A DNA stretch of 35,677 nt from Acidobacteriota bacterium (lineage in GTDB: Bacteria; Acidobacteriota; UBA4820; DSQY01): the NCBI GenBank assembly GCA_021778515.1, contig JAJYCJ010000024.1, positions 1 to 35,677 on the forward strand, written 5' to 3'. Positions 24,825 through 34,230 of this stretch are shown piece after piece; within the stretch, counting starts at the first letter, position 1; each line of letters starts with the position of its first letter. A program made the translations under genes and the position numbers. The notes beneath the pieces were generated by a model. That model was not told the origin of the DNA, did no database searches, and saw nothing but the letters and a program-made list of their open reading frames with translations.

Positions 24825-24849
24825 GTCTCCACTCAAGATTTCAACCCGA

Positions 24850-24880
24850 GGGCCGGAGGCAACTCCGGCCCTTGTTGTTT
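24850..24880 (+). terminator. Strong rho-independent terminator after ndk
   Basis: Nine-base perfect stem GGGCCGGAG (24850-24858) and CTCCGGCCC (24863-24871), loop GCAA, followed by the T-rich tail TTGTTGTTT. It closes the korDABC-ndk transcript. The stretch 24881-25038 beyond it holds no gene I can support. Confidence 0.9.
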
Positions 24881-25038: not shown

Positions 25039-25047
25039 TGCTATCCT
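25039..25047 (+). promoter_or_regulatory. Putative extended -10 promoter of the peptide-modification operon
   Basis: TGCTATCCT at 25039-25047 fits an extended -10 (TGnTATnnT). Transcription would begin near 25054, immediately before the inverted repeat at 25058-25092. No good -35 is seen. Confidence 0.4.
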
Positions 25048-25057
25048 CGGACGAGCG

Positions 25058-25092
25058 CCGGAGCGAGCCGGATTCGAGCCGGCTCGCTCCGG
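25058..25092 (+). promoter_or_regulatory. Perfect 14-bp inverted repeat in the leader of the peptide-modification operon
   Basis: CCGGAGCGAGCCGG (25058-25071) and CCGGCTCGCTCCGG (25079-25092) are exact reverse complements around a seven-base ATTCGAG centre. It could be a leader hairpin (attenuator or stabiliser) or an operator. It is followed by AAGAAAGG, not T's, so it is not an ordinary terminator. Confidence 0.65.
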
Positions 25093-25152
25093 AAGAAAGG
25101 CCTCCGGTTGGATGTTGTTGGCCACGTGGGGAAAGCCTTGAGGGAGCTGAGG

Positions 25153-26040
25153 GTGGACCACCTACCAAGCTTCGGACATTTCAGGGATCTGCCTCGTCCG
25201 ATGGGATCAGGGGGATTCTCCCTGTCCATTGCGGAGCTCTGCGTGCGCTTCGAGGGATTGGACCCGGATTTGCTCGAATCGGCCCGGGGCCGTTACGGCC
25301 CCTTCCTCTGCGAGGAGCAGCCCCAACACACCGTGACTCTGTATCCCGGGGCCGCCGCCTACTTGGATCCGGCCGCGGATCACTTCCTTCGCGTGCTGGA
25401 ATGCCCGATTGAGGGGGCGCGGCTCTACCTCTCCACGGACTTCGCGGCATTGTGGGCCGACGGAACCGAGACGGGCATCCTGAGGGTATCGAGTCCCGAA
25501 GACAGCGAGGCCACCCTCCGCGCGATGGAAAACTATTTGCGGTGGGTGACAGCGGGCCTGGCCCTGCGCCGCGAGGCCTTCGTACTCCACGCCGCGGGCC
25601 TGGTTCGAGATGGTAAGGCCTACGTCTTTTTCGGCCCTTCGGGCGCCGGCAAATCCACCGTCGCCGCTTTGAGCCCGGGATGCGGCCTCCTCTCAGACGA
25701 CCTCGTCCTCCTGCTGCGGCGGGAGGACCGCTGGATGGCCGCCGCAACACCATTCAAGGGCACCCTCTCCCAATCGGCGAAGAAAGCGGGGACGTTTCCT
25801 CTGGAGGGTCTCTTCCGCCTCGTGCAGGCTCCTCGGCATGCATCGAAGATTCTGACTTCTGCTCGAGGCTTGGCCACCCTCCTGGCGAGCTGCCCCTTCA
25901 TCACCGACCCCGCCGCCCGCCACGACAGGCTGATGCCTCTTGCGGCGGACTGTTGCCGCCAGACGGGCGTTCAGGAACTACAGTTCGCGAAGGATCCGGG
26001 GTTCTGGGAATCCATCGCCGGAGAGAAGCGAGATGGCTAG
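25153..26040 (+). CDS. HprK-like serine kinase-type protein of a RiPP cassette
   Basis: A 295-residue protein related to the C-terminal kinase domain of HPr kinase/phosphorylase. The Walker A loop is GPSGAGKST (161-169 from this start), preceded by LHAAGLVRDGKAYVFF. The second HprK signature is LLSDDLVLL (D182-D183). A less conserved N-terminal half (about 20-130) is typical of the HprK-like proteins found beside peptide-modifying genes. The start is uncertain: the open frame reaches 24991. I chose the GTG at 25153 because AGGGAG lies six bases upstream; an ATG at 25201 also fits homology. It overlaps the next gene by eight bases. Related kinases in lasso-peptide clusters phosphorylate the peptide; here it may phosphorylate Ser or Thr of the peptide at 27491 (inferred). 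Confidence 0.8.
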   Translation: MDHLPSFGHFRDLPRPMGSGGFSLSIAELCVRFEGLDPDLLESARGRYGPFLCEEQPQHTVTLYPGAAAYLDPAADHFLRVLECPIEGARLYLSTDFAALWADGTETGILRVSSPEDSEATLRAMENYLRWVTAGLALRREAFVLHAAGLVRDGKAYVFFGPSGAGKSTVAALSPGCGLLSDDLVLLLRREDRWMAAATPFKGTLSQSAKKAGTFPLEGLFRLVQAPRHASKILTSARGLATLLASCPFITDPAARHDRLMPLAADCCRQTGVQELQFAKDPGFWESIAGEKRDG

Positions 26041-26305
26041 CCCCGAGAACTTCAAACGAAATCCCGACGTCTCCTGGCGCACCATCGAGGGGCAGTCGGT
26101 CCTCGTCTTCAACCGCGAGGGAGAGATCCAGGTCCTCAATGAAGTCGGCACTTACGTCTGGGAGCACATGGGCGAACCCATCGAGATCATGGCGCGAGGA
26201 ATCGCGTCGGAATATGATGTTTCCGAGGAGGAAGCCTTGAAAGATGTGGAGGCCTTCCTCGAAGAGCTCAAGGGATCCGGAGCTATTCTCCCTGCGGAGG
26301 AGTGA
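26033..26305 (+). CDS. PqqD-like RiPP recognition protein
   Basis: A 90-residue protein of the PqqD family, whose winged-helix RRE fold binds the leader of a ribosomal precursor peptide and presents it to a radical SAM enzyme. It has the typical spacing: FKRNPDVSWRTIEGQSVLVF, then an EIQVLNEVGTYVWEHM segment (family xxLNxxgxxiWxxl), an ASEYDVSEEEALKDVEAFLEEL helix and GAIL. The start overlaps the kinase stop (ATGGCTAG) with GGAGAG upstream, so the two are coupled. The radical SAM gene starts one base after this stop. The tight order kinase, PqqD, radical SAM supports a peptide-modifying cassette. Confidence 0.88.
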   Translation: MASPENFKRNPDVSWRTIEGQSVLVFNREGEIQVLNEVGTYVWEHMGEPIEIMARGIASEYDVSEEEALKDVEAFLEELKGSGAILPAEE

Positions 26306-26306
26306 G

Positions 26307-27410
26307 TTGGACACGCCCCTCTCTCTGCTTCTCAATCGAGCCATGGGGAAGGCCCATCCCGTCTACGCCTCCATGGAACTCACCTACACCTGTAACTTGG
26401 CTTGCCGATTCTGCTATAACCCGGTCCAGCGCAAGAACCAACCGAGGACCATTCCTCCACCCGCGCCCTCCGGCGAGCCGCTCCGCTTCGAGGAGATCAT
26501 CCGGCTGCTGGACGACCTTCGGGAGATGGGCGTTCTCTACCTTACCCTAACCGGCGGCGAACCCATCCTCCACCCCGATTTCTGGGCCATTGCCTACGCC
26601 GCGAAGGAGCGCTCCTTTGCGCTGAGAGTCTTCACCAACGGCGCCAGTCTGACGGAGCGGACTGTGGAACGCCTCGCCCATCTTGCACCCAACTGCCTGG
26701 AGATGTCCCTCCACGGGGCCACTCCCGGCACGGCCGAAGCGCTCACCCAGACCAAGGGCTCCTTCGAACGCCAGATTCGCGCACTGGAATGGCTCCGCGC
26801 CCGTGATCTCAGAGTCTTTCTTAAGGTCGTAGTGACCCGTCTCGTGGAACACGAATTGGAGACCATCAAGGCCATCGGGAGCCGGTTCGGGTACCCCGTT
26901 TTCTATGATCCGGTCCTGACTCCCTCGGACGACGGTCAGGAGTACCCTCTCGAATTGAAACCCTCGGATGAGGCCATCCAGCGGCTCTACAGCGCCTCCG
27001 GCCTCAACATCGGCAACTCACCCTTCGAACGCGAGCCGGGTCAGTATCACTGCGGAGTGGGCTCGGGGACCATTGCCGTCGATCCATACGGCAACATTTA
27101 CCCGTGTGTGCAATGGAAGGAACCCGTGGGGAACGTCCGCCATGGCTCTCTTCGTGAGATGTGGGAGCACGCTCCGCTCCTGGAGCAGGTTCGCGCCGTG
27201 AGCCGCGCTCTCCCAACACAGCTGATGACTAGCGTGAGAGACCAAGCTTACTGCTTCCACTGCCCTGGCTTGGCACGTCTTCAGACTGGGGATCCCAGCA
27301 AGCCCTACACACAAGCTCTTCGCGTCGCGCGGATACGGCGCGAAGTGGCTGAAAAGGAGATACCTCTTAACGGGATTGAAACCGTGAGTGCGGCTGCGCA
27401 CTCGGATTGA
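26307..27410 (+). CDS. Radical SAM/SPASM peptide-modifying enzyme
   Basis: A 367-residue radical S-adenosylmethionine enzyme. The cluster motif is CNLACRFC (C29, C33, C36) after MELTYTC-like bases. The SAM-binding GGE follows (LTLTGGEPILHPDF). The C-terminal region has SPASM-type cysteines: HCGVGSGTIAVDPYGNIYPCVQW (C249, C267) with VGNVRHGSLREMW, then YCFHCPG (C316, C319), suggesting at least one auxiliary cluster. Such enzymes install thioether, C-C or other crosslinks on RiPP precursors. The start is a TTG at 26307, seven bases after GGAGG and right after the PqqD-like gene's TGA; the open frame reaches back to 26244, and an ATG lies at 26343. The substrate is most likely the peptide encoded at 27491, but the chemistry cannot be read from sequence. 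Confidence 0.88.
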   Translation: MDTPLSLLLNRAMGKAHPVYASMELTYTCNLACRFCYNPVQRKNQPRTIPPPAPSGEPLRFEEIIRLLDDLREMGVLYLTLTGGEPILHPDFWAIAYAAKERSFALRVFTNGASLTERTVERLAHLAPNCLEMSLHGATPGTAEALTQTKGSFERQIRALEWLRARDLRVFLKVVVTRLVEHELETIKAIGSRFGYPVFYDPVLTPSDDGQEYPLELKPSDEAIQRLYSASGLNIGNSPFEREPGQYHCGVGSGTIAVDPYGNIYPCVQWKEPVGNVRHGSLREMWEHAPLLEQVRAVSRALPTQLMTSVRDQAYCFHCPGLARLQTGDPSKPYTQALRVARIRREVAEKEIPLNGIETVSAAAHSD

Positions 27411-27415
27411 CTTAT

Positions 27416-27448
27416 TCTCCCCTCCTTCATAATTTTAGGGAGGAGAGG
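27416..27448 (+). promoter_or_regulatory. Imperfect hairpin before the precursor gene
   Basis: TCTCCCCTCC-type and AGGGAGGAGAGG-type arms surround an AT-rich TTCATAATTTT loop. It could stabilise the precursor message or limit read-through from the enzyme genes; precursor transcripts often need to exceed those of the enzymes. Evidence is base pairing only. Confidence 0.35.
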
Positions 27449-27490
27449 AATCGTCTGGGCCACGTGGGGCCCGAAGAGGAAAACCGAGGA

Positions 27491-27613
27491 ATGGGTAACT
27501 GTAAAAAGCCTTATGAGAAACCTGCCGTCGTGTACCGAGAGAAGATCGAAGCCCGAGCCGGCACGTGCAGCAAAGCTGACCAGCTTACGTGTTCGTCAGG
27601 AGCTGTGAGCTAA
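27491..27613 (+). CDS. Candidate RiPP precursor peptide
   Basis: A 40-residue peptide, Lys/Glu-rich at the N-terminus (KKPYEKPAVVYREKIEARAG, about 5-24), then a Ser/Thr/Cys-rich tail (TCSKADQLTCSSGAVS, 25-40). Cysteines are at 4, 26 and 34; Ser at 27, 35, 36 and 40. The KPYEKPxV leader followed by an (A)xAGxC junction resembles short peptides recalled beside PqqD/radical SAM genes in other bacteria (recall, not searched). The open frame extends to 27407, but GAGGA lies before the ATG at 27491. Two cysteines in the tail are plausible crosslink sites; the serines are possible kinase targets. A hairpin-like stretch (27416-27448) lies in the 80-base gap after the radical SAM gene. Function is inferred from context. 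Confidence 0.75.
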   Translation: MGNCKKPYEKPAVVYREKIEARAGTCSKADQLTCSSGAVS

Positions 27614-27671
27614 CACGCTCAATCTCGATGAACTCCATGGCTTTCCTAAGCCGGTCAGGAAGCAGGTTGTT

Positions 27672-30600
27672 ATGAAACCGTTGAGGCGTTCTAGTGCTTC
27701 ACCGTTAGCATCCGGCTGGGTCAGGCTCTCCTTGCGGGCGGCAGGGTTTGTAGCCTTAGCATTTCTGCTAAGCTCTTCCTGCTCTATGTGGGGTTCTGCG
27801 GCTGTCCTGACACACCGGATCTTAGTCCGATGGTCTCCCTCTCCCTCCCAGATAGCGGCCTGGAAAGCGCGCTTCGCCGAGGAACCTTCCCGACCTGCGC
27901 CAGAGGTCTCGCTTAAAGTGGCTCTCCCGCCTGATGCCACCTCGTGCAGAATTAGTGTCCAAAGCTGTATGTGGCTGACTCTGCAGCTAGCGCCGACGCC
28001 CGCCTTCAGCGGACCTGAGATCCGTTTGGGGGCGCGCGGCACTTGGCACGGCATCTCCTATCAAGAGATAGTGGTGCGCCCCGTCAGGCCGGCCAGAGGA
28101 TCTCGCCCCGCGCAGCTTCTTCAAGGGCTCTCCATTGTTCTTCACTATGTTAGCACCAGCGGGAGAAGCGAAAGCCGCTCCTTGAACGCCACAAGCCTTC
28201 CCCCGGAGGCATCTCTTTTCGTGAATCCTGCCCAGGCAGCTCTTTTCGCCAGAGTCTCCGGTTCGTTGACTGGTGAAGCGGTGGCTGCGGGGACACCAAA
28301 AAGCCTGCCTCCCCGACTGCGGATCTCCGTAAGTCGAGATGGCATCTACCGTCTGGATTCCTCCTTCCTGTCGAGCGCCGGGTTGGACCTCGTAGGCGCG
28401 CCCCTGAGTTCGATTCACCTCATGAGCAGAGGGGTTCAACTTCCCTTCTTGGTAGATGGCCCTGCGTCGCTAAACTTCGGGTCACAAAACGCCATCGTCT
28501 TCTACGGCCAACACCTCCACATCACCAACAGACCTCTCTGGCAGGGCGGAGACTTTACCCCTACAAACATGTACTGGCTTTACCTTGATCCGTCCTCCTC
28601 TGGCCTACTGATGGGGAGCGCTCCGGCGACTTCAACCTCGGGCTTCCCGACCGTCACCTCCTTCGAGCAAACCGTTCATGAAGAGGTGAATAATGCCCTG
28701 GACACCGTGGACCACTTTCGTGCCAACGGAGACAACTGGTTCTGGGTTCCTCCCTTTCTGGCTCAGGCTGGAAGTTCCAGTCCGCCTTACACCTATTCCG
28801 CCGTTCTGCCTCACGCCCTTGGAGGAGCGGCCACTCTCACCGCCGTCATTGCAGGAGCGAGCACAGGGGACCACGCCATCAATGCACAGCTCAACGGCCA
28901 AAATCTTGCTTCAGGCGGAACGCCTTGGAGCGGCAAAGCCCTTACGACTCAGCAGTGGAGCTTTTCTTCGGGTGCAGTACCGGGGACTAACACCGTCACC
29001 TTCTCGCTACCCGGGTTTCCTTCGGAAATGGACTTTCAGGCCCTAGATTATTTTGAAGTCACTTTTGCGAGAACCTTTTCCGCCGATGCGAACTCTCTCC
29101 TCTTCACGGACGCGAACGCCAACGCGCAGTACAGCTCCTCCGGTTATTCGGCGGCTCCATACATCCTGGATCTTTCCCAGTCGGACAGCGCCACGGGTCT
29201 CTATCTTCCCGTTCTCTTGACCGGCGCCACCTTCTCTAGCGGCACGGTGACCTTCCAGATGCCGCAGAATCCCAACGTGTCGGGCCGGACGGTGGCCATT
29301 TCTTCGGCGCCCCTCCTGCCCGATTCGGCCGCCATGTCGAGCGGAGTGGACCTGGCTTCGCCCCAGCAGGGTTGCGACCTTTTGATCATCACCCATCCCT
29401 TCTTCCACCCCACTGGCCAGGACCAGATCTGGCAGGCTTTCCTGGCAAGGCGGGAAGCCCAGATGTCGGTTCGGGTCGTGGACATCCAGGACATCTACGA
29501 CAACTTTTCCTATGGGATCTTTGATCCGACGGCGATCCACAGCTTCATTCAGTCGGTGGCCGCCAACTGGAGCCCGGTCCCCAAGTACCTGTTGCTGATC
29601 GGCGACGGGACCTACGACTATTACAACTACAAGCAGGACCCGACCATCCAGAACTGGGTCCCGACCATGATGTTCGACGACTTGGGCGACAGTACCTACA
29701 TGGGCCGCTACCCTTCGGACGCTTGGTACGCCGACGTGAACGGGGACGGCTACCCGGATATGGCCGTGGGGCGCATGCCCGCGCGCAGCTACGCCCAGCT
29801 CGCGGGCATGCTCACCAAGATCATGGCCTACGAGGATCAGACCCTGCAGGGCTCCTGGTACAAGACGGGCCTCTTCGTGGCGGACACCTGGACGCAACCC
29901 TGGGAGCAGGTCTTCGAGACCTTCAACAACCAGCTTCAGGCCACCTACATGCAGGCGCCCTGGCAGACGCAGCACGTCTACTTCCACGACCCGCCCTACA
30001 ACGGCACGGATGCCGACGCCTGCGCCTCCGACATCCGGACCGACTGGCCCGGCTCCGCCATCGTCCACTACGACGGCCACAGCGGTGTAGGTTTCTACGG
30101 GAAGAATTGCGACATTTTCGGCTCCCTTCCCCTGAATTTGGCGAATTGCCGGACGGGCTCGGCGAGCGATACGGACGTCAGCCTTCTCGCACCCATCACC
30201 CTCCCGCCTTCGTCGCCCTTCGCCCCCCTGCCTTTCGTTTTGAACGCCGGCTGTTACAGCTCGGCCTTCGACGAGCCGGGAGACCCCTGCCTGATGGAGG
30301 CGCTCCTGGACCGCCCCGACGGGGGCGACGTCGGCTCCACGGGCTTCTCCACCATCGCCTATCCCGACGAGGAGGAGACCTTCAACTCCTCCATTTTCGA
30401 CCTGGCCTTCCTCACACCGAAGGTGCGGACCCTGGGCGACCTGGTCGACGCGGGCCGATTTTCCCTTCCCTCCACCGACGCCCGCAGCGTCATGGGCAAC
30501 ATCCTCCTGGGCGATCCGACCCTCCGCCTGAGACTGCCCGCGCCGGCGCCGCCGACCCAGCTTTCAGCCACGCCCGGCGACGCCTCGGTGGCGCTCGCCT

Positions 30601-31865
30601 GGTCGGCCCCGGCCACCGCTGTCGCGAGCTACAACCTGTACAGGAGCCAGGACGGCGGCGCCACCTGGGCTCTCGTCTCGGGGGCCAACCTCGGGGCCAG
30701 CAGCACCGCCTATACGGACACCGGCCTCACCAATGGCGCCACCTACAGCTACTACATCACCACCCTGGACTCGGGGGGCTTCGAGGGGGCACCGAGCAAC
30801 ATTGCGTCGGCTACGCCCGGTGCGCCACCCTGCACGCTGGCCTGCACCGCGTCCGTGCCCACCAGTGCGGCGGTCAACCAGACCTTAGCCTTCTCGGCCA
30901 CCGCCACCCCCTCCAACTGCTCCTCCTCGACGGTCACCTACGACTGGGGCTTCGGTGACGGCTCGCCCCATTCCTCCAGCCAGAATCCGACCCACGCCTA
31001 CACTTCGGCCGGGACCTACACCTGGACCATGACGGCCTCCGACTCGGGGGCCACGTGCACCCAATCCGGGACCGTCCAGGTGGATGCCTGCTCTCTGACC
31101 TGCTCCGCCACCGTGCCCCCCTCGGGAACAGCGGGCGTTCCCCTGACCTTCGTCGCCGCGTCGGCCTCCGACTGCACGGCCGGCCCAACCTTCCAGTGGG
31201 ACTTCGGGGACGGAACCGGTGGTGCGCAGGGATCCATCGTCTCCCACGCCTACGCGCAGGGCGGAACCTACCGGTGGACGCTGACCGTGACGGCGGGAGG
31301 GCAGACCTGTTCACAGAGCGGTGCGGTGACCGTGTGTTCGATCACCTGTTCGGCGAGCGTCCCGTCCCGAGGCCAAACCGGCGGAGCCGTGAGTTTCTCC
31401 GCCACGGCATCGCTGGGGGCGGGATGCCCGGGCAGCCCCATCTTCACCTGGATCTTCGGCGATGGGAGCCAAGCCTCTGGAGCCTCCACCACGCACACGT
31501 ACGCCTCCTCCGGCACCTACACTTGGCTGCTGACCGCTTCGGCGGATGGCCTGACCTGCTCCCAGGAGGGCTCCATCACCGTCGTGGACCCGCCCGTCAT
31601 CACTTCGGTGGGCAAGGCCTCTCCTCCTTTCCGGCTGGTCCTCAAGGGTGCTAACCTCCAGGCAGGCGCTCAGGTGAGCATCAATGGGAGCTCATGGGCA
31701 CGGGTCTCCGGGAAGGGGACCGGCAAGCTCGTGCTCAAGGGGAGGGGTCTCAGGGCCCTGTTCCCGGGCGGAATCTTCGTGCCCATTCGCGTGGTCAATC
31801 CGGACGGCGGGGAGGTGACCGTGTCCTACGACCGCCGCTCCAACAGCTGGCATCCCGCCGGTTGA
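27672..31865 (+). CDS. Secreted C25 (gingipain-type) cysteine peptidase with FN3, PKD and TIG-like domains
   Basis: A 1397-residue exported protein. The N-terminus is a signal peptide (hydrophobic stretch about 22-38). The N-terminal C25-associated domain includes PPRLRISVSRDGIYRLDSSFL (about 212-232) and VFYGQHLHI. The peptidase domain has LLIGDGTYDYYNY, then the catalytic His H803 (VHYDGHSG) and the catalytic Cys C861 (NAGCYSSAFDEP). A fibronectin III domain (about 957-1050), three Cys-bearing PKD domains (about 1055-1140, 1145-1225 and 1230-1310, each with FGDGS or FGDGT) and a C-terminal TIG-like domain (about 1315-1397) follow. The TIG-like domain is shared with the PKD protein at 6494-8467. 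The start follows AGGAAGCAGG. It lies 58 bases after the precursor gene and may be co-transcribed. Role in the peptide system is unproven. Its 5' third is less GC-rich than its 3' part. Confidence 0.9.
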   Translation: MKPLRRSSASPLASGWVRLSLRAAGFVALAFLLSSSCSMWGSAAVLTHRILVRWSPSPSQIAAWKARFAEEPSRPAPEVSLKVALPPDATSCRISVQSCMWLTLQLAPTPAFSGPEIRLGARGTWHGISYQEIVVRPVRPARGSRPAQLLQGLSIVLHYVSTSGRSESRSLNATSLPPEASLFVNPAQAALFARVSGSLTGEAVAAGTPKSLPPRLRISVSRDGIYRLDSSFLSSAGLDLVGAPLSSIHLMSRGVQLPFLVDGPASLNFGSQNAIVFYGQHLHITNRPLWQGGDFTPTNMYWLYLDPSSSGLLMGSAPATSTSGFPTVTSFEQTVHEEVNNALDTVDHFRANGDNWFWVPPFLAQAGSSSPPYTYSAVLPHALGGAATLTAVIAGASTGDHAINAQLNGQNLASGGTPWSGKALTTQQWSFSSGAVPGTNTVTFSLPGFPSEMDFQALDYFEVTFARTFSADANSLLFTDANANAQYSSSGYSAAPYILDLSQSDSATGLYLPVLLTGATFSSGTVTFQMPQNPNVSGRTVAISSAPLLPDSAAMSSGVDLASPQQGCDLLIITHPFFHPTGQDQIWQAFLARREAQMSVRVVDIQDIYDNFSYGIFDPTAIHSFIQSVAANWSPVPKYLLLIGDGTYDYYNYKQDPTIQNWVPTMMFDDLGDSTYMGRYPSDAWYADVNGDGYPDMAVGRMPARSYAQLAGMLTKIMAYEDQTLQGSWYKTGLFVADTWTQPWEQVFETFNNQLQATYMQAPWQTQHVYFHDPPYNGTDADACASDIRTDWPGSAIVHYDGHSGVGFYGKNCDIFGSLPLNLANCRTGSASDTDVSLLAPITLPPSSPFAPLPFVLNAGCYSSAFDEPGDPCLMEALLDRPDGGDVGSTGFSTIAYPDEEETFNSSIFDLAFLTPKVRTLGDLVDAGRFSLPSTDARSVMGNILLGDPTLRLRLPAPAPPTQLSATPGDASVALAWSAPATAVASYNLYRSQDGGATWALVSGANLGASSTAYTDTGLTNGATYSYYITTLDSGGFEGAPSNIASATPGAPPCTLACTASVPTSAAVNQTLAFSATATPSNCSSSTVTYDWGFGDGSPHSSSQNPTHAYTSAGTYTWTMTASDSGATCTQSGTVQVDACSLTCSATVPPSGTAGVPLTFVAASASDCTAGPTFQWDFGDGTGGAQGSIVSHAYAQGGTYRWTLTVTAGGQTCSQSGAVTVCSITCSASVPSRGQTGGAVSFSATASLGAGCPGSPIFTWIFGDGSQASGASTTHTYASSGTYTWLLTASADGLTCSQEGSITVVDPPVITSVGKASPPFRLVLKGANLQAGAQVSINGSSWARVSGKGTGKLVLKGRGLRALFPGGIFVPIRVVNPDGGEVTVSYDRRSNSWHPAG

Positions 31866-31937: not shown

Positions 31938-32468
31938 GTGCGCGATCCGGGGGCGGTCCACGCCTGGCTTGCCGCCGCCAAGGCGGGGGATGAGGAGGCC
32001 TTCCGGAGCCTCCTGACTCTCTATTACCCCATTCTTTTTCGACTCGTATTCCAGATGGTTCCGCGCGCCGAGGATGCGGAGGAGATCCTCCAGGACGCCT
32101 TCTACCGCTTCTACCGCGCCCTCGCGAGGGTGCGGGCCGAGGAGGACCCCTTCCCCTTCCTCCGCACCATAGCGGTCAGGACGACCTACAGCTTCCTCAA
32201 GCGCCACCGGCGACAGCCCCTCAGCCTGGAGCAGCTGCCGGAGGAACTGGCGCACCTGCCCGTGCAGGAGCTTCAGGTGGAGGTCGCCACCCTGTACCGA
32301 TGGGCCGAGAGACTCCCACCCCAGCAGCGGATGGTCTTTCTTCTGAGGGACGTTCTGGGCGTGGAAGACGCCGCCATCGCCGGCATGCTCGGCATTCGGG
32401 AACCCACCGTGCGCCGTCACGCATCGCTGGCGCGGGAGGCCTTCAAGCGGGACTTCGGTTCACTCTAG
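31938..32468 (+). CDS. ECF-type RNA polymerase sigma factor
   Basis: A 176-residue sigma-70 family protein with region 2 (AWLAAAKAGDEEAFRSLLTLYYPILFRLVFQMV ... EDAEEILQDAFYRFYRAL) and region 4 (LPPQQRMVFLLRDVLGVEDAAIAGMLGIREPTVRRHASLAREAF). The two are joined by the usual Ser/Leu-rich linker, with no sigma 1.1 or 3 region. It would direct polymerase to a regulon outside the housekeeping set. The GTG start at 31938 has no good Shine-Dalgarno. Instead, GGGAGGAGGG precedes a GTG at 31894 that opens a 14-codon frame ending TAG at 31936-31938, overlapping the sigma start as TAGTG; coupled translation is possible. No anti-sigma gene lies next to it. It may control the C25 peptidase or the upstream cassette (inferred from position only). 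Confidence 0.85.
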   Translation: MRDPGAVHAWLAAAKAGDEEAFRSLLTLYYPILFRLVFQMVPRAEDAEEILQDAFYRFYRALARVRAEEDPFPFLRTIAVRTTYSFLKRHRRQPLSLEQLPEELAHLPVQELQVEVATLYRWAERLPPQQRMVFLLRDVLGVEDAAIAGMLGIREPTVRRHASLAREAFKRDFGSL

Positions 32469-32536
32469 CGGGTGAATCGCCGGCCGCCCGGGCATGGTGA
32501 CGGTGCACGCTCTCCTTTCCATCCGGAGCGGCCTCC

Positions 32537-32552
32537 GAAGCCCTCAGGCTTC
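32537..32552. other. Short palindrome in the intergenic stretch after the sigma-factor gene
   Basis: GAAGCC (32537-32542) and GGCTTC (32547-32552) around CTCA. The gene-free stretch 32469-32740 otherwise shows no gene, repeat or recognised RNA; a T-run is absent, so termination is only a possibility. Confidence 0.3.
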
Positions 32553-32740
32553 TGTGAGATCGAGGAGCGCCACCCTTCCCTCCCCTCCGGTAATGCTTGG
32601 CCATCGCCTATCCACCTCACATCGGGTGCATCAATCCCGCCACCAACCCCCGGCCACGGGTGCGAGTTGAGGCGGCCCGCCAGGAATGAGCCGGCGGAAG
32701 GGGAGGGGCGGTCCGGGCTTCGGAGCGCACCGAGCCGCCG

Positions 32741-32769
32741 TTGCCCTCGGCTTCGCGCTCACGTATAAT
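32741..32769 (+). promoter_or_regulatory. Strong sigma70-type promoter for the CheW gene cluster
   Basis: TTGCCC (32741-32746), a 17-base spacer and a perfect TATAAT (32764-32769). The leader is only about 16 bases with GGAGGA at 32781-32786, so the gene has a compact, strong start. Confidence 0.7.
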
Positions 32770-32791
32770 CGCTCTGTTACGGAGGAAACCC

Positions 32792-33451
32792 TTGGACCTG
32801 GCCAAAATCCGCAAGAAGGCGCGCCTCGAGAAGGGCGGTCGGGCCTCCCAGGAACCCGAGGAGCGCCGCGAGGCGCCGACGCCCCCTCCTCCCTCCTCCC
32901 CTGAAACAGCCGGCCTCGAAATCCCCCCCCCGCCCTCCGGACTTTCTGCGGACTCCTCCGGCGCCAGGGAAACCGAGGACATATCCGTTGCGGCGGGGAC
33001 CGACACCGCCGCGTCTGCTTCCTCCAAGAGAGAGCGGCTCCTGATCTTTACCATCGAGACCGAAAAATACGCCATTCCGATCCACGAGATTTCCCTCATC
33101 ATCGAGCCGCCGCCCATTACCCCCATACCCAACTGCCCCGACTATCTCCTCGGGATCGTCTCCCTTCGGGGAAAGGTGGTGAGCATCATCGACGTGGCCT
33201 CGCGCTTGAGATTGCAGCGCCTCTCCGTACCGACCGCGCCGAAGATCGTCATCCTGGATCTGGGCGCCGACCAATTCGGCCTCTTCGTGGACGGGATCGA
33301 CCAGCTCGTGGAGGTGGCGCTGACTTCCCTGGAAACACCGCCCGAAGGGTTCACCCAGAAGGCCCAGGACTTTGTCGAAGGCGTGTTCCATCACAAGGAC
33401 AGGGCGGTGGCCTATCTGAACCTGCCCGCCTTTCTGTCGTTCCGTCTCTGA
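32792..33451 (+). CDS. CheW-like scaffold protein
   Basis: A 219-residue cytoplasmic protein. Residues about 80-219 form a CheW domain, with LLIFTIETEKYAIPIHEISLIIEPPPITPIPNCPDYLLGIVSLRGKVVSIIDVASRL matching the family. CheW couples chemoreceptors to the CheA kinase. The first 78 residues are a Pro/Ser/Glu-rich disordered extension, not seen in classical CheW (about 165 residues). The start is a TTG at 32792: the ribosome site GGAGGA sits five bases upstream, and the perfect TATAAT promoter falls just before it, so an earlier start is unlikely. It heads a group with the pseudoreceiver and HEAT proteins. No CheA, CheR or methyl-accepting protein is within the window, but more may lie beyond 35677. 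Confidence 0.88.
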   Translation: MDLAKIRKKARLEKGGRASQEPEERREAPTPPPPSSPETAGLEIPPPPSGLSADSSGARETEDISVAAGTDTAASASSKRERLLIFTIETEKYAIPIHEISLIIEPPPITPIPNCPDYLLGIVSLRGKVVSIIDVASRLRLQRLSVPTAPKIVILDLGADQFGLFVDGIDQLVEVALTSLETPPEGFTQKAQDFVEGVFHHKDRAVAYLNLPAFLSFRL

Positions 33452-33468
33452 CCGCAAGGAGTGGCCGG

Positions 33469-34230
33469 ATGCTCGTCCAGTGTCCCAACTGTCTCAAGCG
33501 GTACCGTCTCCAACAGACCCAGGCCAGGCTCCTGAGGGTCCGGTGCAGAGGTTGCGGCAGCGAGTTTCTGGTCTCCCCCACGACCGACCAGCGCCACGAG
33601 ATCCTGGGCCGCGAGGAGCGGACGACGGCCGTGGTGGCCGACATCCAGCGCGACTTCCGAAACCTGGTCATCAACCTCCTGAACGATCAGGGGTTCCACC
33701 TCTTCATCGTGGAGGAAGGGGATCGCGCCCTGGCGACGGTGATGGAACAGAAGCCCCGCCTCCTCCTGGTCAACCCCTACCTGCCGGGCCTCTTGGGCGT
33801 GGACCTCATCGCACGAATCAGGGCCGAGGCCTCCGTGGCTCCGATCATCATCCTGATGGGCGCCATCCACAGCTCCCGGAGATACCACCGCAGGCCGCAG
33901 TCCCTATACGGTGCCGATGACTACCTGGACGAGGGCAGCAGCGAGGCGGTCATCCTTCGCAAGCTCGCCTTCCACCTGGAGATCGCCCTGGCGGGAAATC
34001 ACCTGGGCGAGGGCATCGACGCCGAGTCCCTGCGCTTGGCGCGCAGCGTCTTCGCGGACCTTCTGGTCTACGATCCGGGCCGGATGGTGCAGGTTCGGGA
34101 CGTTCCGGACTTTTTCCGCCTCTTCGCCGATGAAGCGGCCGAGGGCCGCCGCTATTTGGAGCACCGCCGGCCCGGAGCCGGCGAGTATCTCAGCCGAGTC
34201 GTTCAGCATTACCTCCGAAAGAGGGAGTAG
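33469..34230 (+). CDS. Zinc-ribbon protein with degenerate receiver domain
   Basis: A 253-residue protein. It opens with a zinc ribbon of the MJ0042 kind: CPNC (5, 8) and CRGC (26, 29). A receiver-like domain at about 50-175 follows, with VVADIQRD, LLLVNPYLPG (N102 where the phosphoacceptor Asp normally lies) and YGADDYLDEG (no catalytic Lys). It should therefore not be phosphorylated in the normal way. A C-terminal helical region (about 180-253) contains a degenerate zinc- or DNA-binding-like pattern that I do not recognise. Start: ATG with AAGGAG seven bases upstream. It follows the CheW gene by 17 bases and is probably co-transcribed. Likely role: adaptor in a chemosensory-type complex (inferred). 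Confidence 0.75.
   Translation: MLVQCPNCLKRYRLQQTQARLLRVRCRGCGSEFLVSPTTDQRHEILGREERTTAVVADIQRDFRNLVINLLNDQGFHLFIVEEGDRALATVMEQKPRLLLVNPYLPGLLGVDLIARIRAEASVAPIIILMGAIHSSRRYHRRPQSLYGADDYLDEGSSEAVILRKLAFHLEIALAGNHLGEGIDAESLRLARSVFADLLVYDPGRMVQVRDVPDFFRLFADEAAEGRRYLEHRRPGAGEYLSRVVQHYLRKRE

Follow-up and report, generated by a model that had tools for sequence, protein, structure and literature searches.

The SynChlorMet cassette (ScmA-F; TIGR04249, 04250, 04251 and 04248) brings an HprK-like protein, a PqqD relative and radical SAM/SPASM proteins together, and we know of no C25 peptidase or C-terminal Ser rule in that system. Sactipeptides and ranthipeptides involve SPASM-type radical SAM enzymes (SkfB, AlbA and PapB) and Cys-containing precursors. 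Phosphorylated lasso peptides (paeninodin and pseudomycoidin) combine an HprK-like kinase and a stand-alone PqqD-type recognition element (RRE) for ribosomally synthesized and post-translationally modified peptides (RiPPs) with a YxxPxL leader motif and a conserved C-terminal Ser, and an NTP_transf_5 nucleotidyltransferase sometimes lies near their gene clusters. In these lasso systems, PadeK places a phosphate on the precursor's C-terminal Ser, which is conserved wherever a homologous kinase gene occurs (PMC9266682), and the kinase family requires a set of H, three G, K, S, D and D residues (PMC10368454). The locus described here lies in a window of 35,677 nucleotides, the whole stretch of DNA that was analysed, from an Acidobacteriota genome that is 97% complete (assembly GCA_021778515.1, contig JAJYCJ010000024.1, positions 1 to 35,677). 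There, the genes for an HprK-like kinase, a PqqD protein, a radical SAM/SPASM enzyme, a short Cys-containing peptide and a large secreted C25 cysteine peptidase form one co-directional unit. We consider it reasonably likely that this unit is a RiPP cassette joining a lasso-type front end (RRE plus C-terminal Ser kinase) to a radical SAM cross-linker, with the PorU-like C25 peptidase as a dedicated partner.

Most genomes surveyed are incomplete metagenome-assembled genomes, and the search profiles were trained on members found stepwise. A search with the peptide alone recovered the precursor in 26 of 100 relatives, and the profile search recovered it in 53 of 297 Acidobacteriota genomes. The same 297 genomes contain the radical SAM subfamily (>300 bits) in 50 cases, kinase relatives in 86 (the distant ones including paralogues outside cassettes) and, among the matches listed, C25 peptidases in 103. 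Within the 53 precursor genomes, the kinase occurs in 52 (Fisher p 1e-33), the radical SAM subfamily in 48 (p 5e-47) and C25, among the matches listed, in 43 (p 2e-14), all three tests being uncorrected for phylogeny. A preliminary description of the locus had raised the possibility of a RiPP system with a peptidase and had named beforehand, as one outcome that would refute it, a small open reading frame (ORF) not conserved in relatives that keep the enzymes; this did not occur: the precursor is present in 48 of the 50 genomes with the radical SAM subfamily, and this enzyme-linked conservation, together with the recurrence of C25, supports that reading. A radical SAM-anchored scan of a second collection yielded 18 loci of the subfamily, several of them cut by contig ends, with the kinase in 16, PqqD in 16, the precursor in 12 and C25 in 9. 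These loci come from Acidobacteriota, Aminicenantes, Gammaproteobacteria, a Desulfobulbaceae bacterium and a Deltaproteobacterium. Kinase, precursor and C25 were found in none of the next 62 radical SAM loci, which score a clear step lower, and the plasmid collection gave no precursor match. Because the peptide recurs beside these enzymes in many families and phyla, the cassette is real and not a chance assembly; its radical SAM and PqqD genes come with a short, conserved precursor, as expected of a radical SAM/SPASM RiPP system with an RRE. Housekeeping genes near some distant loci (UvrB/C and Phosphodiest) were judged to be chance neighbours. The cultured isolate Thiocapsa marina 5811 (locus L073) encodes a kinase, PqqD and radical SAM enzyme of this family, the precursor not being seen on its short contig. 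Three further loci (L046, L061 and L062) have three kinase and two radical SAM genes per cassette, and L061 and L062 show no recognisable precursor or C25 within the stretch examined.

The precursor has no match in Pfam or NCBIfam, and its conserved positions form a compact pattern. Among 65 distinct precursors, all 65 contain [YW]xxP, 63 a near-invariant Ala 15 residues after the Tyr, 64 two Cys after the motif, and 60 a Lys between these Cys. The last residue is Ser in 64 and Thr in the remaining one, with ten kinds of penultimate residue and a tail of variable length; for 469 long genes at these loci, taken as background, Ser is the last residue in 7.5% and Thr in 1.5%. A second, divergent precursor family accompanies a more distant radical SAM clade (L140-L148) that also has the kinase, PqqD and C25. 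Its members, found by the YxxP pattern alone with no condition on the last residue, mostly have three Cys and end in Ser in nine of nine cases. In BsfA-type lasso leaders the YxxPxL motif spans positions -17 to -12, which places the near-invariant Ala at -2 here and, by analogy, suggests a leader/core border two residues ahead of the first conserved Cys. The two conserved Cys, perhaps with the intervening Lys, are the candidate cross-link positions judging by their conservation, and analogy with the lasso kinases narrows the 'possibly phosphorylated' peptide of the preliminary description to a predicted site, the near-invariant C-terminal Ser. A longer, 68-aa reading of the peptide from a TTG at 27407 was set aside as unsupported, most relatives beginning at an ATG just 5' of the KKxY motif.

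The front end of the cassette resembles that of the phosphorylated lasso peptides. The PqqD protein (PF05402, 2.5e-14, passing the Pfam cut-off) has lasso RREs, TfuB1 (6jx3) and 9x90, as its nearest solved structures, which, with the ubiquitous [YW]xxP, is consistent with a stand-alone RRE for a YxxPxL-type leader. The kinase matches HprK-type family models weakly and reaches 32 bits against a cut-off of 200 bits for HPr kinase-related kinase A (TIGR04352). Because a sequence search of the PDB gave only P-loop and PEPCK-level matches, it was compared by fold; its confidently predicted structure (pLDDT 93.9) retrieves PEPCK first and HPr kinase second. Its catalytic set (H130, G145, G148, G150, K151, S152, D166 and D167) includes every residue of the lasso kinase H-G-G-G-K-S-D-D series. 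As in lasso clusters, an HprK-like kinase occurs with a precursor ending in Ser. The remaining genes differ, the places of lasso protease and cyclase being taken by a SPASM-type radical SAM enzyme and the C25 peptidase. The B2 transglutaminase-like leader protease (PF13471) is absent from the window genome, with positive controls in two genomes, and membership of the lasso class was rejected on this ground. As the preliminary description held, no lasso cyclase is visible at the locus: none of the asparagine-synthetase-like type is found among the cassette genes, the whole genome not having been searched for one.

The radical SAM enzyme passes the Pfam cut-offs for both Radical_SAM (PF04055, 1.2e-24) and SPASM (PF13186, 1.9e-7), retains CxxxCxxC and C-terminal Cys, and has SkfB as its nearest solved relative. 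It shares with the sactipeptide and ranthipeptide enzymes a SPASM-type architecture and a Cys-containing precursor, but belongs to another radical SAM subfamily, is accompanied by a separate RRE and a kinase, and falls below every NCBIfam cut-off for the named maturase families (SkfB, AlbA, StsB and PapB). For mycofactocin MftC (TIGR03962) it scores 119.8 bits against a cut-off of 265 bits. The joint presence of kinase, PqqD and radical SAM/SPASM genes recalls SynChlorMet, but scores lie far below the curated cut-offs (ScmC 26.5/125, ScmD 18.1/100, ScmE 84.7/400 and ScmF 58.4/400 bits). This genome has a further RRE cassette (L181, C116:1-4379), in which PqqD is accompanied by two radical SAM genes, an HprK-like gene whose P-loop is altered and a 75-aa peptide with four Cys that ends GSSA rather than on Ser, an arrangement that recalls SynChlorMet. 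In the open-access literature searched, which does not cover many subscription journals, no report was found in which a radical SAM RiPP is linked to either a C25 peptidase or an HprK-like kinase.

The large peptidase passes the Pfam cut-offs for PF01364 (4.2e-65), one fn3 and three PKD domains, the latter two types lying toward its C-terminal side. PF01364 and a His/Cys dyad, with GH and Cys invariant in 23 relatives, place it in family C25. In sequence and fold, its nearest relatives are PorU over the whole length and gingipains over the catalytic domain; since PorU is closer than gingipain R, the earlier 'gingipain-type' label is better replaced by PorU-like C25. It has in common with these enzymes the C25 domain, the dyad and a PorU-like N-terminal region, and differs in its PKD tail, its RiPP cassette neighbours and a genome without SprA. 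Its score for the type IX secretion system sortase PorU (NF033707) is 178.5 bits against a cut-off of 420 bits, and an explanation through that secretion system was rejected: neither the window genome nor its close relative G307 has the SprA translocon gene, three Bacteroidetes controls being positive.

The peptidase gene is closely tied to the precursor gene. Among 46 places where both occur in one locus (including three duplicate contigs, with distances measured to stop-to-stop frames), the two lie <=400 bp apart in 44 and on the same strand in 45. The order radical SAM - precursor - C25 prevails in most Acidobacteriota; in a second group, including Proteobacteria, C25 precedes the precursor, and the two often occupy the other strand from the radical SAM gene. 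In L050 and L071, a single kinase/radical SAM set accompanies two C25-precursor pairs, and three loci (L034, L037 and L044) have tandem precursors next to one C25. Across the 297 genomes, a listed C25 is found no more than 10 kb away for at least 33 of 66 precursors and at least 28 of 55 radical SAM genes, values that are lower bounds because contigs break. The other refuting outcome in the preliminary description, a peptidase missing from otherwise identical cassettes, did not occur either: C25 turns up next to the cassette in distant Acidobacteriota families, in Proteobacteria and in the divergent radical SAM clade that has another precursor. In a maximum-likelihood tree of 69 radical SAM enzymes, C25-linked members occupy both main parts, leaving repeated loss or missing data to account for the rest. 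A radical SAM-C25 distance correlation (r 0.84) does not control for the species tree and was not used. In a locus of the same genus, an extra 984-aa secreted-looking ORF (L031, 6932-9883) stands between precursor and C25.

Within the window, the kinase stop codon (TAG, 26038-26040) overlaps the PqqD gene, whose ATG is at 26033, by eight bases, one base separates the PqqD stop from the radical SAM TTG, the peptide starts 80 bases past the radical SAM stop and C25 starts 58 bases past the peptide (Table 1). Of the four tightly packed genes in the preliminary description, the eight-base overlap and the one-base gap hold, and edge-to-edge packing is confined to three genes. Its proposal that the unit has its own promoter was not confirmed: the promoter scan found no sigma-70-like promoter 5' of the kinase and a single match, at 28043, which is chance level. 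A strong terminator-like hairpin nevertheless sets the kinase apart from ndk. Downstream of C25, the window encodes an extracytoplasmic function (ECF) sigma factor, a CheW-like protein and a zinc-ribbon/receiver protein (31938-34230).

Table 1. Features of the cassette and its flanks in the window.
Feature	Position	Strand	Basis or remark
Terminator-like hairpin, 12 pairs, after ndk	24847-24874	+	upstream unit boundary
HprK/PEPCK-fold kinase	25201-26040	+	start checked by reading frame
PqqD-type RRE, 90 aa	26033-26305	+	start checked by reading frame
Radical SAM/SPASM maturase (putative), 367 aa, TTG start	26307-27410	+	frame checked
Precursor peptide (putative) MGNCKKPYEKPAVVYREKIEARAGTCSKADQLTCSSGAVS, 40 aa	27491-27613	+	frame and relatives
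YxxPx[VIL] motif, residues 8-13	27512-27529	+	like lasso leader YxxPxL
Core region (predicted) Cys26...Lys28...Cys34	27566-27592	+	two Cys and Lys between conserved
C-terminal Ser40	27608-27610	+	predicted phosphorylation site
Secreted PorU-like C25 peptidase, 1397 aa	27672-31865	+	frame, Pfam, fold
C25 catalytic His	30078-30080	+	invariant in 23 aligned relatives
C25 catalytic Cys	30252-30254	+	invariant in 23 aligned relatives
ECF sigma factor, directly 3' of C25	31938-32468	+	possible regulator

The observations comprise gene content, conservation, linkage, motifs and predicted folds. The peptide is the putative substrate of the RRE, kinase and radical SAM enzyme on the strength of genomic linkage and motif analogy; we infer each reaction, the sequence of the reactions, export, and which of peptide and peptidase acts on the other. 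PqqD would bind the 40-aa precursor through its YxxPx[VIL] leader, like the lasso B1 protein, the kinase would phosphorylate the C-terminal Ser hydroxyl as PadeK and ThcoK do, and the radical SAM/SPASM enzyme would cross-link the C-terminal half, most likely via the conserved Cys pair and perhaps the intervening Lys. The leader would be cut off near the conserved Ala. C25 would be a dedicated extracytoplasmic partner, probably a maturase that most likely carries out the last processing step or releases the peptide; the main alternative is that the peptide inhibits or activates the peptidase.

Several observations weigh against this scheme. About half of the cassettes have no listed C25 within 10 kb, and one C25-less clade has S24-like peptidase, NTP_transf_5 nucleotidyltransferase or ABC-2 permease genes nearby. 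The kinase also occurs outside the cassette in several Acidobacteriota families, and the lasso kinase BsfK acts on Ser3, not on the C-terminus (PMC10368454). An Arg-gingipain-like cut at EAR|A fails as a general rule, the Arg not being conserved in Proteobacteria or order-level relatives, and, as the preliminary description noted, the window cassette has no dedicated transporter. Finally, some precursor copies directly follow other secreted proteins, with the radical SAM gene far away or missing from the locus. Such copies are seen at L043 (9941-10057), L039 (9998-10117), L175 (6195-6308) and L052 (7225-7332), after ORFs of 397, 506, 508 and 1643 aa in the order L043, L039, L175, L052. NTP_transf_5 genes beside C25-less cassettes lie at L161 (4863-6062) and L163 (10014-11174), as in some kinase-bearing lasso clusters.

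Copies behind non-peptidase secreted proteins (L043, L052 and L175) suit a ligand better than a leader-peptidase substrate, and we give some, though clearly minority, weight to a modified peptide that is made inside, exported with its partner and serves as the dedicated inhibitor or activating ligand of C25 and neighbouring secreted proteins. A peptide that regulates the peptidase would account for L050 and L071, where each C25 has one precursor, for the tight co-directional pairing in either order and for orphan copies next to other secreted proteins, nearly as well as maturation does; the tandem precursors by one C25 (L034, L037 and L044) and the lack of a peptide export route in the cassette speak against regulation. 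A bolder reading, which we regard as improbable, makes C25 a PorU-like transpeptidase or peptide-gated enzyme, the phosphorylated, cross-linked RiPP being a covalent tag or essential subunit of neighbouring secreted proteins and not a free product. It is similarly improbable that C25 matures the peptide outside into a signal that is relayed to the neighbouring ECF sigma factor, which would control the operon: this sigma gene is kept immediately 3' of C25 and co-directional with it in many Acidobacteriota families, but is missing next to C25 in Proteobacteria, in several families and in the clade with the second precursor, and no anti-sigma factor or receptor was recognised.

That the HprK-like protein is a scaffold or has a substrate other than the peptide, the Ser being kept for recognition by the radical SAM enzyme or the peptidase, for example, seems doubtful. 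Its weak sequence similarity to known kinases and a fold closest to PEPCK, ahead of HPr kinase, would allow this, but all catalytic residues of the lasso kinases are kept, Thr is the sole substitute for the terminal Ser, and the kinase accompanies the precursor almost without exception. Least credible is a C25 gene that is a chance or merely syntenic neighbour retained by common descent. Cassettes without C25 exist, and the order around C25 (ndk, sigma factor and CheW) is conserved in the nearest families; the pairing nonetheless holds across Acidobacteriota families and Proteobacteria despite rearranged order and strands, and appears again next to the divergent radical SAM clade, whose precursor is of another family.

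Short genes of this kind that lack annotation can be found by a simple precursor rule: YxxPx[ILV], an Ala 15 positions past the Tyr, two Cys flanking a Lys, and Ser as the last residue. If the proposed RiPP cassette is confirmed, C-terminal Ser phosphorylation would be a portable RRE and kinase module common to lasso and radical SAM RiPPs, a RiPP would be tied directly to a large secreted cysteine peptidase, and a function would be assigned to a cassette present in about a sixth of the sampled Acidobacteriota genomes.

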